This document shows, piece after piece, positions 1,143 to 4,472 of a stretch of 5,431 nt of DNA (positions are counted from its first letter, which is position 1; the number at the start of each line of letters is the position of its first letter). The position numbers and the translations under genes are program-made. Source of the stretch: Bacteroidota bacterium (GTDB lineage: Bacteria > Bacteroidota > Bacteroidia > Bacteroidales > JADFUO01); NCBI GenBank assembly GCA_015222115.1, contig JADFUO010000274.1:1-5431 (forward strand), read 5' to 3'. The notes beneath the pieces are model-generated. The model saw only the letters and a list, made by a program, of their open reading frames with translations. It made no database searches and was not told the DNA's origin.

Positions 1143-2975
1143 ATGAGAATACCTTTTTTAGAATTCCTTAAAGACAACATTGTTTTATTTGACGGTGCAA
1201 TGGGAACAGAGATTTACAGCAAAGGAATTTTTATTAATACTTGTTATGACGAGTTAAATTTATCAAAACCTGAGCTCATAAAAGAGATTCACCGTTCGTA
1301 TGTTGAAGCAGGAGCTGATGTTATTGAAACTAATACATTTGGGGCGAATCGTTTATTGCTTCAAAAATTTGGTTTAGAAGATAAAACATATCTGATTAAT
1401 TACCAGGGAGCAAAAATTGCAAGAGAAGTTGCAGATGAAGACGTCTATGTTGCCGGATCAATTGGTCCTTTAAATGAACGTTTGGAACCGTGGGGGTCGC
1501 TTTCTGAGGATGAAGCACGAGCAATTTATGTTGAACAAGCTAAAGCTCTTATTGACGGCGGAGTGGATTTATTAATATTAGAAACCTTCTCGGATATACA
1601 TTTTATACAACAAGTAATTCTTGGAATTAAAGAAAAATTTAACATTCCAATAATTGCCAATATGACAATAGGCGATGATGGAAATACCTCATTTGGAACA
1701 CCTTCGGAGATATTTGCAAAAAAAATAGAACTATGGGGTGCAAATGCTGTTGGACTTAATTGCAGTGTTGGTCCAAAAGTTATGCTTGATGAAGTTGAAA
1801 AAATGATACATGCTGTTAATATTCCGATTTGTGTCATTCCCAATGCCGGAGTTCCACAGAATATTGACGGAAGAAATATTTATCTGGCTTCACCTGAATA
1901 TTTTGGTGAATATGCAAAACATTTTACACAAGCAGGTGTGAGGATTATCGGTGGTTGCTGCGGTACGAATCCTGATTTCATTAAAGCTATGAGAAAAGCT
2001 ATTAAAGCTGTCCAACCCAAAAAACAATTAAAAAAACGAATTGAGATTATTAAGGAAGAAGAACAATGTAGTGCGATTCCCAGCTGTGAAAAATCTGAAT
2101 TTGCAAGAAAAATTTGTGAAAAACAATTTGTTACAACTGTTGAAATCGTTCCTCCTAAAGGCTCGGACCCTTCCAAAGCAATAGAGCAGGCAAAAATCCT
2201 GAAAGAAGCCGGTATTGACGCAATTAATATTCCCGATGGTCCGCGTGCACTTTCAAGGATGGGAGCAAGTTATCTTTCACTTCTTATACAGCAAAATTCA
2301 AAAATTGATGTAATACAACATTATACTTGCCGTGATAGGAATCTTTTGGGAATGGTCGGCGACCTTTTAGGTGCGTATGGAGCAGGTATTAGAAACATTT
2401 TACTTGTTACGGGTGACCCACCAAAAATGGGTTCCTTCCCTGATGCAACTGCTGTTTTCGATATTGACTCTATCGGACTGACAAACCTTACATATACTTT
2501 AAACTGTGGGAAAGACCTTGGCGGAAATCAGTTAACAAATCCGACCGGCTTTTTTATTGGTGTCGGAGTTAATCCGGGAGCAATTGATTTAGACTATGAA
2601 ATTCGCCGGTTTGAATGGAAAGTTAAAGCCGGAGCTGAATTTGCCATCACTCAGCCGGTATTTGACAGTAAAATATTCTTTAATTTTATTAAACGAATAG
2701 AGCATCTAAAAATTCCGATAATTGCAGGAATATGGCCATTAGTTAGTATTAGAAATGCTGAGTTTATGAATAATGAAGTTCCGGGTGCTTCTGTACCTGA
2801 CAGTATAATGAAAAGAATGTATGCCACTAAAACCAAAGAAAAAGCAAGAATATTAGGATTGCAAATTGCACGTGAAACAGTAGCAGAATTAAAACCATAT
2901 ATAGTTGGTGTGCAAGTTTCAATGCCTTTTGGCAATGTAAATTATCCAATTGAGGTTCTGAAAGATGTTTTATGA
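1143..2975 (+). CDS. Bifunctional homocysteine S-methyltransferase / 5,10-methylenetetrahydrofolate reductase (YitJ-like)
   Basis: The 610-residue protein joins two enzymes of methionine synthesis and is close in length and layout to Bacillus YitJ. Residues about 1-290 are a homocysteine S-methyltransferase barrel, with DGAMGTE at 17-23, ETNTFGAN at 62-69, and the zinc/homocysteine ligands C207 (GLNCSVGP) and C272-C273 (GGCCGTNP). A charged linker at about 290-325 follows. Residues about 326-610 are a MetF-type flavin barrel that reduces 5,10-methylene-THF to 5-methyl-THF. E334 (VEIVPPKG), D425 (VTGDPP) and Q504 (TQPVFD) align by motif with E. coli MetF E28, D120 and Q183. There are no MetH cobalamin-binding or activation domains, so the methyl donor for the first domain (methyl-THF directly, S-methylmethionine or a corrinoid protein) is not settled by sequence. 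The start at 1143 leaves six residues before the barrel begins and has an A-rich leader. No S-box or THF riboswitch is recognisable upstream. Confidence 0.93.
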   Translation: MRIPFLEFLKDNIVLFDGAMGTEIYSKGIFINTCYDELNLSKPELIKEIHRSYVEAGADVIETNTFGANRLLLQKFGLEDKTYLINYQGAKIAREVADEDVYVAGSIGPLNERLEPWGSLSEDEARAIYVEQAKALIDGGVDLLILETFSDIHFIQQVILGIKEKFNIPIIANMTIGDDGNTSFGTPSEIFAKKIELWGANAVGLNCSVGPKVMLDEVEKMIHAVNIPICVIPNAGVPQNIDGRNIYLASPEYFGEYAKHFTQAGVRIIGGCCGTNPDFIKAMRKAIKAVQPKKQLKKRIEIIKEEEQCSAIPSCEKSEFARKICEKQFVTTVEIVPPKGSDPSKAIEQAKILKEAGIDAINIPDGPRALSRMGASYLSLLIQQNSKIDVIQHYTCRDRNLLGMVGDLLGAYGAGIRNILLVTGDPPKMGSFPDATAVFDIDSIGLTNLTYTLNCGKDLGGNQLTNPTGFFIGVGVNPGAIDLDYEIRRFEWKVKAGAEFAITQPVFDSKIFFNFIKRIEHLKIPIIAGIWPLVSIRNAEFMNNEVPGASVPDSIMKRMYATKTKEKARILGLQIARETVAELKPYIVGVQVSMPFGNVNYPIEVLKDVL

Positions 2976-2997
2976 TTTTTTTAATTGTTCTTTTGGC

Positions 2998-3028
2998 TTG
3001 CAATCCCTTGTAAAATTTTGTATATTTG
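2998..3028 (+). promoter_or_regulatory. Bacteroidetes-type sigma-ABfr promoter
   Basis: TATATTTG at 3021-3028 is an exact match to the Bacteroidetes -7 consensus TAnnTTTG. A TTG at 2998-3000 lies 20 bases upstream, a suitable -33 element. The expected transcription start, a few bases after the -7 box, falls at about 3034-3036, which is exactly the first base of the folded leader (3035). No other TAnnTTTG lies between here and the start codon at 3224, so this should drive the secreted-protein gene. The consensus is established for the phylum; use of this site is inferred. Confidence 0.65.
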
Positions 3029-3034
3029 TCAATA

Positions 3035-3205
3035 TTAACCCGTTTTATTCATACAAGAACATAGTGAAGTGTATGAATGTGCGATGGATATAGGAAAGCA
3101 AAACGGGAAACCCCGATTTAGAAATACTCAAATTTGGGGATTGAAAAGAAAACAAATTTGTTGGTATTTCTTAATCGCAGAAAATTCGTGAATTTTCCGG
3201 GTTAA
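3035..3205 (+). ncRNA. Structured leader RNA or small RNA upstream of the secreted-protein gene (unrecognised family)
   Basis: About 171 nt can fold almost completely. The outer helix TTAACCCG (3035-3042) pairs with CGGGTTAA (3198-3205). Arm 1 pairs CCCGTTTT (3039-3046) with AAAACGGG (3100-3107), continues with ATTCATACA (3047-3055) against TGTATGAAT (3070-3078), and leaves a 14-nt loop and a 21-nt one-sided bulge (3079-3099). Arm 2 pairs 3114-3128 with 3163-3177 (one U-U mismatch, one G-U) and stacks on CAAATTTG (3129-3136) against CAAATTTG (3153-3160), with a 16-nt loop. Arm 3 pairs 3180-3186 with 3191-3197. The outer helix and arm 1 compete for CCCG 3039-3042. No poly-U terminator follows, and the closing helix ends 18 nt before the ATG, which favours a cis-acting leader over a free RNA. 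It does not match the SAM-I, THF, cobalamin, c-di-GMP, SRP, tmRNA or RNase P cores that I know. Pairings are seen directly; function is inferred. Confidence 0.6.
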
Positions 3206-3223
3206 CCTTAAAAACCAAATATT

Positions 3224-4297
3224 ATGAAAAAAATTTTACTATCAATTTTTACAGTTTTATTGAGCATTACATTATCGGCTCAAATCAGCATTACAAGTGA
3301 TGATATAGTAGGTGCAGGAGCAATTGTTCTGGAAGCAACCGATACATTACCATCATCCTCTATTACACCAGGACCGGCAGGACCTGATCAAACATGGGAT
3401 TTTTCAGCTCTGTCAGTAGATTATGTTGATACTATGTGGTTTGCGAATCCCGATTGGACCCCGTATTATGAGCATTTTCCTGCAGCAAATCTGGCAGCGT
3501 TGAGAATTTTTGACAGCGCATTAGACAGCGCAGACATGTATTTCTATTTAGAAAAAAATGAAGATGAATTTGCGATGGTTGGAATTGTATTCGAAATTGA
3601 ACAGCTTGGCTATGTTATTATGCCATGTATTCCAAAGGAAACTATTGCAGAATTCCCTGTTGATTATCTGAACAGCAGCACAGAAGATTTTGTACTATTA
3701 ATTGAGATTGAAAGTCCTACTCCTCCTGCTGATTCAATTAGAATAAAAATGTCAATAACAAAATCGCTTGAAGTAGATGCATGGGGTGATATAACCATTC
3801 CTCTTGGAACTTTTAATTCTTTAAGGATAAGCGAAACAAGAATTGAAATAGATAGCATTTGGATACAATTATCTGGATCGTGGATGTTTGTTGAAGAAAC
3901 GATTGATACAATGTACAGTTATTCCTGGTGGACAGATGATGATGCAGCAGGTTTTATTTTAGCTACACTTAGTTATGAACCTGATACAAAAACAGTTACT
4001 GAAGCCACGTTTTTAAAGGCAAGCCCTTATTATAGTATAGAAGAAAATCAAAATAAAGTATTTGTTAATGTTTATCCAAATCCTGTTTCTTCAAATATAA
4101 AATTTTCATTTAAAGATAAAACAGAAGGCTTTATTGAGATTTTTGATTTTACAGGAAGGAATATTGAAGAAATTCAACTGAATAATGTTCACGAAGTTAT
4201 TATAAATATGAGTGAATATCCCGCAGGTATCTATTTATACAGCATTATCGGGGAAAATGGGAATATAATCCACTCGGGAAAGATCTGTAAAGATTAG
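3224..4297 (+). CDS. Secreted hypothetical protein with C-terminal T9SS type A sorting domain
   Basis: I do not recognise a catalytic family in this 357-residue protein. Residues 1-19 are a Sec signal peptide (MKK, hydrophobic ILLSIFTVLLSITL, likely cleavage near LSA|Q). The middle, about 20-275, is acidic, rich in aromatic residues and probably beta-structured. It includes DQTWDF at 55-60, AWGDITIPLGTFNSLRI at 186-202 and a tryptophan-rich patch, YSYSWWTDDD, at 231-240; the GTF/GTY-N-LR pattern recurs in other T9SS cargo of unknown role. Residues about 280-356 are a type A sorting domain: VYPNPVSS at 283-290, IEIFDFTGR at 304-312 and YPAGIYLYSI at 332-341. The protein should therefore be exported, cross the outer membrane by T9SS and be released or anchored through A-LPS after the domain is removed (known for the family). 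C135 and C355 are its only cysteines. The ATG at 3224 follows an A-rich leader and the structured RNA. The next gene converges on it. Confidence 0.9.
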   Translation: MKKILLSIFTVLLSITLSAQISITSDDIVGAGAIVLEATDTLPSSSITPGPAGPDQTWDFSALSVDYVDTMWFANPDWTPYYEHFPAANLAALRIFDSALDSADMYFYLEKNEDEFAMVGIVFEIEQLGYVIMPCIPKETIAEFPVDYLNSSTEDFVLLIEIESPTPPADSIRIKMSITKSLEVDAWGDITIPLGTFNSLRISETRIEIDSIWIQLSGSWMFVEETIDTMYSYSWWTDDDAAGFILATLSYEPDTKTVTEATFLKASPYYSIEENQNKVFVNVYPNPVSSNIKFSFKDKTEGFIEIFDFTGRNIEEIQLNNVHEVIINMSEYPAGIYLYSIIGENGNIIHSGKICKD

Positions 4298-4309
4298 ATT
4301 AATTAGAGT

Positions 4310-4455
4310 CTGTCTATAAAGTCACGTTCTAATAATTTAAGATTTTAGAATTCAGATTTAAAATTTAAAATTTTGTTGATTATCAGCGGATTAAAAAATA
4401 AAGATCTAAAATCATAAATCTAAAATTATATCAACATAATTGACTTTATGGACAG
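4310..4455. mobile_element. MITE-like palindromic element with 15-bp terminal inverted repeats
   Basis: CTGTCTATAAAGTCA at 4310-4324 and TGACTTTATGGACAG at 4441-4455 are inverted copies with one mismatch, which would be a G-U pair in RNA. Inside them, 4332-4345 is complementary to 4416-4429 at 13 of 14 positions, and GTTGAT (4375-4380) to ATCAAC (4430-4435). The interior is almost pure A/T with no coding capacity. TAATT occurs just outside both ends (4300-4304 and 4460-4464) and might be a target duplication, but the ends are not exact enough to be sure. It could be a non-autonomous transposon remnant or a dispersed palindromic repeat. It lies between two converging genes. Confidence 0.55.
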
Positions 4456-4472
4456 GTACTAATTTACCTGTC
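4451..4472. terminator. Hairpin between convergent genes, possible bidirectional terminator
   Basis: GACAGGTA (4451-4458) and TACCTGTC (4465-4472) form a perfect 8-bp stem with a 6-nt loop, 11 bases beyond the stop codon of the minus-strand gene. Neither side has a clean run of T (plus side: AGGTTGATTTCTT), so intrinsic termination would be weak; protection of the 3' end is an alternative. GACAG is also the outer end of the right terminal repeat of the palindromic element, so the two folds exclude each other. Confidence 0.35.

Follow-up and report, generated by a model that had tools for sequence, protein, structure and literature searches.

Correia/NEMIS, ERIC and RUP repeats are short, palindromic, intergenic and mobile, and become part of transcripts. 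Among transposons, the piggyBac elements of eukaryotes target TTAA. IS1380 transposases are placed as a distant outgroup of piggyBac in the accessible part of one report (PMC10140906), and the accessible part of another lists IS1247, a published IS1380 member, with a 5-bp duplication (PMC3281130). In Porphyromonas gingivalis, a non-autonomous mobile element (MITE) has been described that, according to the available portion of the paper, contains a minisatellite (PMC4596501). Here we analysed a stretch of 5,431 nucleotides (the window) from a Bacteroidota bacterium. Positions 3039–3201 (plus strand, CCCG...CGGG) hold one copy of a dispersed repeat of 163 bp, whose insertion duplicated a TTAA that lies between a likely promoter and the start codon of a gene for a secreted protein. 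We consider it highly probable that the repeat is a MITE and that IS1380-family transposases move it in trans by cut and paste.

The window is contig C158 of genome G000 (2.31 Mb in 534 contigs, 83% complete) and encodes ETF alpha, a homocysteine methyltransferase/MTHFR fusion, a T9SS-secreted protein with a Por_Secre_tail domain (3224–4297, plus strand; PF18962, 41.9 bits) and, on the minus strand, a CCG-domain protein. The folded stretch, which lies between the fusion gene and the secreted-protein gene, had been read in a first-pass annotation as a possible structured RNA. All of the arms named there are present: an outer helix (TTAACCCG at 3035–3042 with CGGGTTAA at 3198–3205), a 9-bp helix (ATTCATACA at 3047–3055 with TGTATGAAT at 3070–3078), an 8-bp helix (3039–3046 with 3100–3107), a long arm (3114–3136 with 3153–3177) that has mismatches and a hairpin near the closing helix (3180–3187 with 3190–3197). 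The remark that the stretch resembles no familiar riboswitch class or housekeeping RNA core was also borne out, as the best Rfam match reaches 22.3 bits (E = 0.75) against a gathering score of 80. Upstream, TTG at 2998 and the −7 box TATATTTG at 3021–3028 form a likely promoter of the Bacteroidota type (2998–3028, plus strand). This promoter is older than the insertion; at the corresponding place the congener G001 has TATATTTG and the congener G002 has TACATTTG.

Other repeats lie close by. Window positions 4298–4465 hold another dispersed repeat, different from the first and bounded by GTCTGTCTATAAAGTCA and TGACTTTATGGACAGGTAC, which has dozens of matches (69–98%) in G000, G001 and G002 and is probably another MITE. 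A 27-nt piece just 5′ of the promoter (2974–3000) recurs exactly at several other places, and most of the recurrences that were read fall inside a third repeat containing CCTGTTTTCCGCATTGGGACACC.

The site of the insertion is preserved without the element in two congeners. Both G001 and G002 carry the same secreted-protein gene and a similar promoter region, with flanking DNA 90–98% identical to that of the window and a single TTAA in place of the element; the empty sites read ...TATATTTGCTGATATTAATCATTAAAATCAAATATTATG and ...TACATTTGTCGATATTAATCATTAAAACCAAATATTATG, respectively. In the window this TTAA is found twice, immediately before CCCG (3035–3038) and immediately after CGGG (3202–3205). 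Among 85 distinct full-length copies (collected as described below), the 4-bp flanks are identical in 76, namely TTAA in 63, TTAG in 5, TTAT in 4, CTAA in 2, TGAA in 1 and TAAG in 1, and unequal in 9. Because the 13 non-TTAA variants are mirrored on the two sides, the four bases are target sequence and not element sequence, and the flank is a true target-site duplication. The coincidence of the predicted transcription start with the first outer-helix base, which had been taken as a sign that the pairing is not due to chance, is accounted for by the insertion, because the target TTAA lies just 3′ of the −7 box and does so in G001 and G002 as well, where there is no element. At a second site (L022), G001 lacks the element but has about 130 bp of other DNA there and thus no clean empty site, and a search for a second empty site for L002 found a single flank in G001. 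In G002, about 330 bp of other DNA lies further upstream, ahead of the promoter (C179, L326), and the element is absent at the window's site.

Both ends of the element read CCCGNNNNATTCAY and form imperfect terminal inverted repeats, the left being CCCGTTTTATTCATAC (3039–3054, plus strand) and the right, read on the minus strand, CCCGGAAAATTCAC (3188–3201). The two ends of the MITE match each other only at CCCG and ATTCAY, which tells somewhat against the reading as an IS1380-moved element. No transposase gene was found in the 163 bp, as no listed open reading frame (ORF) of at least 60 amino acids lies within. Near-identical dispersed copies, a target-site duplication, terminal inverted repeats and the lack of a transposase gene are together what defines a MITE. 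The hairpins beside both ends and the strongly palindromic sequence would also suit a single-strand-transposed element of the IS200/IS605 or REP type, or an integron attC site. To our knowledge these systems make no target duplication, and the mirrored 4-bp duplications rule them out; the end motif is moreover common to IS1380-family DDE transposons (below), and we regard this reading as extremely improbable.

Copies of the MITE are dispersed within its own genome and beyond. A search of G000 with window 3000–3223 returned a copy at 98% identity in C175 that ends at the element borders, pieces at 97% and 95% on two contig ends (C29 and C92), and fragments besides; by their flanks, the two pieces are halves of one copy, which is also found in G002. 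Among 60 relatives, full copies occur in the congener G002 (92–97%) and in G053, a member of another family (71–83%); the congener G001 is without the element and G003 has only a 26-nt piece. An 18-base left-end pattern matches at least 118 stretches in the GTDB contig collection, largely from Bacteroidota MAGs, at least 11 of which lack the element by sequence, and there are 143 left-end matches in a single cave MAG (DYQV01). Across the order, 20 of 393 genomes match this pattern with at most one mismatch, and fetched loci show the element in 8 of the 393 (G000, G002, G053, G116, G192, G226, G279 and G343). G056 has a different element of about 210 bp (L198 and L334), with similar ends (CCCGCATTATTCATAC and CCCACATTATTCATG) and TTAA flanks; the other 11 pattern-matching genomes look like chance matches. 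The element had no match in the phage and plasmid collections, nor did its left-end pattern in the viral contigs searched.

Searching with a 36-seed profile produced 249 matches, including 132 full-length ones; removal of duplicates and of copies with fewer than 10 flanking bases left 85 distinct copies. Outside the genus, identity to the window copy is 65–92% (copies of up to 180 bp). Thirty of the 85 copies are longer than 180 bp, and many of these (L131, L080, L140, L159 and others) contain hairpin modules (GAACYGA..GAAGTGAGCTCACGAAGTAA type, about 20–36 nt) that recur at internal positions corresponding to window 3062–3078 and 3102–3117. Shorter forms also occur. One, CCCGCTTTATTCATACC...GGTATGAATAAAGCGGG (L100, 4775–4822, and L124), is a mini-palindrome of some 48 bp set between a TTAA and a CTAA and is apparently a deletion derivative of the first hairpin domain, and two copies in G053 (L038 and L040) are without the long-arm loop, as if it had been deleted between two CAAATTTG repeats. 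One MAG labelled Chlorobiota (G403, C523, L227) has the same copy and flank as C90 of G002, which suggests cross-binning.

To place the copies relative to genes, we considered the 43 of the 85 with at least 700 bases on each side. When their flanks were joined, a stop-free stretch of at least 120 amino acids crossed the junction in 2 copies and one of at least 90 amino acids in 6; the figure for random points in the same flanks was 180 of 200. With few exceptions (41 of 43), copies lie between genes. The right-hand ORF runs in the same direction as the element in 19 copies and in the opposite direction in 23, with none in 1. Neighbour orientations from a simple ORF caller are ++ in 14, +− in 14, −− in 9 and −+ in 5, with one undecided, a count that alone cannot separate intergenic copies from gene-interrupting ones, as the joined-flank test does. 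Convergent sites therefore outnumber divergent sites, the opposite of what a leader element would show.

These observations bear directly on the proposal that the stretch is a cis-regulatory, riboswitch-like leader RNA of the T9SS-secreted protein gene. Its strong fold, its location between promoter and start codon and the compensatory changes seen in relatives (below) are all as such a leader would have them. However, G001 and G002 keep the gene and a similar promoter region without the element, the direction of the right-hand ORF is mixed, and there is no constant association with a gene or position. As copies lie at many unrelated sites, empty sites exist, four bases are duplicated and no orientation suited to a leader is preferred, we abandoned this proposal, to which we assign next to no probability. 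The folded stretch is a copy of mobile DNA and no dedicated leader RNA of this gene. Because the insertion left in place the promoter box and, ahead of the ATG, a short A-rich stretch (22 bases including TTAA, slightly unlike the congeners in sequence), it would mainly lengthen the mRNA leader of the secreted protein by 167 nt. For this gene, a bystander 3′ of the insertion, the likely effect, judging from the sequence, is a longer and structured leader.

The interior of the MITE is nevertheless highly structured. The plus strand folds at −46.5 kcal/mol (z = −4.29; none of 200 shuffles as low), and the fold of the minus strand is no weaker (z = −5.71; better than all 200 shuffles), which inverted repeats in DNA would lead one to expect. 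Copies of 138–178 bp without N (54 of the 85) were reduced to 31 representatives at less than 96% identity, 27 of which were aligned after the exclusion of four with larger indels. The RNAalifold consensus of these 27 copies has two domains; the outer helix and the right-end hairpin are both absent from it. Domain 1 (3039–3107) pairs CCCGTTTT (3039–3046) with AAAACGGG (3100–3107) around the hairpin 3047–3055/3070–3078, and domain 2 (3114–3177) is the long arm with a CAAATTTG/CAAATTTG tip. In a six-helix structure, which adds the right-end hairpin GAAAATTC/GAATTTTC (3180–3197), 92.5% of the alignment cells pair.

Double (compensatory) changes occur at 17 of the 46 pairs of this structure, and to this extent the first-pass annotation is supported; the shuffled mean is 6.2 with none of 500 as high, and versions of the six helices shifted by 1–3 columns have 2–8 such pairs. 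The 8-bp helix and inner hairpin of domain 1 contribute 4 of 8 and 1 of 9 pairs, the three helices of domain 2 contribute 2 of 5, 6 of 8 and 2 of 8, and the right-end hairpin, where the alignment is least certain, contributes 2 of 8; a TGCGAT/ATCGCA helix has none at its 6 pairs. The outer 8-bp helix that was thought to enclose the arms fares less well: its arms exist, but its CCCG/CGGG portion (TTAA not counted) has double changes at none of 4 pairs, and it cannot form fully together with the 8-bp internal helix because CCCG at 3039–3042 is common to both.

Such changes, the two-domain consensus fold and the identity retained outside the genus could indicate that the element is also a functional noncoding RNA, its transcript being under selection. 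Selection on plus-strand RNA predicts that G–U pairs exceed A–C, whereas helices 1–5 have 13 G–U cells (9 kinds) and 29 A–C cells (13 kinds) on that strand, and 31 and 41, respectively, with helix 6 included, counts in which the alignment cells are not independent of one another. In a set of 78 distinct sequences, three helices lean to A–C and two to G–U, the latter being 3047–3078 (17 to 8) and 3180–3197 (50 to 32), as an RNA role would have it. Because G–U pairs do not exceed A–C on the plus strand overall, this role is unsupported; that both strands fold well also speaks against it, and palindrome-directed template switching could yield paired changes without selection. We consider a mobile structured RNA unlikely, and infer from the sequences that the hairpins of the MITE matter for the element as DNA.

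The candidate source of mobility came from the ends. Eleven genomes with the left-end pattern were screened for DDE_Tnp_1 (the families screened being DDE_Tnp_1 and IS1380 only), and 8 of these genomes yielded 24 loci in all. When up to two mismatches are allowed, the end motif is present at all 5 IS1380-like loci and at none of the 19 other DDE_Tnp_1 loci, and the five motif-bearing loci are exactly those that tblastn relates to the transposase of locus L247; both ends were seen at only 2 of the 5. The link is weakened by this and by chance matches, as a lax version of the end pattern, seen 7 times, is already expected 2.45 times per shuffled set of 24 loci. Three ORFs tested against the NCBIfam IS1380 transposase model score 309–338 bits (cut-off 180), and the motif bounds those of 309 and 338 bits in L247 and L250. 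L247 holds a complete IS1380 copy of 1609 bp with ends at 995 and 2603, whose flanks, CTAA and TTAA, are contrary to expectation not an exact duplication; L250 holds a more distant complete copy of 1795 bp with CCTGAATTATGCAT ends. The right end of the L247 copy, CCCGCATTATTCATAC, agrees with the common left end of the MITE, CCCGCTTTATTCATAC, at 15 of 16 bases and with the left end of the window copy, CCCGTTTTATTCATAC, at 14 of 16. Transposase fragments in G394 and G395 adjoin the end motif at the L247 spacing (95 and about 217 bp). A sequence search with the L247 transposase matched no solved structure.

As both of its ends are like those that bound IS1380-family transposase genes in related MAGs, the MITE is likely to be mobilized in trans by IS1380. 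Another transposase that shares the TTAA target and has similar ends by chance could instead be responsible, and many carriers are indeed without an IS1380 gene: neither the IS1380 model nor a search with the L247 transposase found one in G000, none was found in G001, G002, G003 or G053 either, 12 of the 19 genomes tested (G000 among them) have no match to that transposase and 3 of the 19 have only fragments (G226, G394 and G395). A copy may possibly have been missed in the incomplete G000 assembly. Given that the motif stands at the IS1380-like loci and is absent from the other DDE_Tnp_1 loci of the same genomes, we think a different transposase quite improbable. An IS1380 transposase would thus be predicted to recognize CCCGNNNNATTCAY ends and to insert the element at TTAA, more rarely at TTAG, TTAT or CTAA, with the internal hairpins presumably kept because they help the element as DNA. 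More speculatively, and as a rather doubtful suggestion, the interior of this TTAA-targeting family may be a selected two-hairpin core and not degenerate filler, maintained by compensatory change among Bacteroidota families, with hairpin modules added at recurrent positions. Folded as a single strand, of DNA or of minus-strand RNA, such a core would make the element a better substrate of the IS1380 transposase or would let it regulate that enzyme.

A riboswitch candidate is thus replaced by a family of mobile elements. Repeats of this kind break MAG assemblies and, when they land in leaders, can mimic covarying structured RNAs; comparative RNA searches should therefore check for target duplications and empty sites. 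For TTAA insertion in bacteria, the analysis also supplies a definite IS1380 end sequence that can be put to the test. The literature searches made here found no description of this repeat.

Among known repeats, the Correia/NEMIS, ERIC and RUP families are alike in general character and differ in sequence, target and hosts. Eukaryotic piggyBac transposons have the same TTAA target, whereas the element described here is bacterial and also uses TTAG, TTAT and CTAA. It resembles the P. gingivalis MITE, compared by description only, in being small, dispersed and non-autonomous with inverted repeats, but TTAA, the target of the element described here, does not occur as a word in that paper according to a text count (PMC4596501). 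The IS1380 family (NF033539; DDE_Tnp_1_4, PF13701) shares with it the terminal motif CCCGNNNNATTCAT and TTAA or CTAA flanks and is, on sequence grounds, the likely source of its transposase. Unlike IS1380, the element has no transposase gene, and by eye its interior shares nothing with that family beyond the ends; its duplication is 4 bp, compared with the 5 bp given for IS1247 in the accessible part of the source (PMC3281130). MITEs are a known kind of element and IS1380 is a known family; what is new here is best called a further MITE family with an unusually conserved structured interior.
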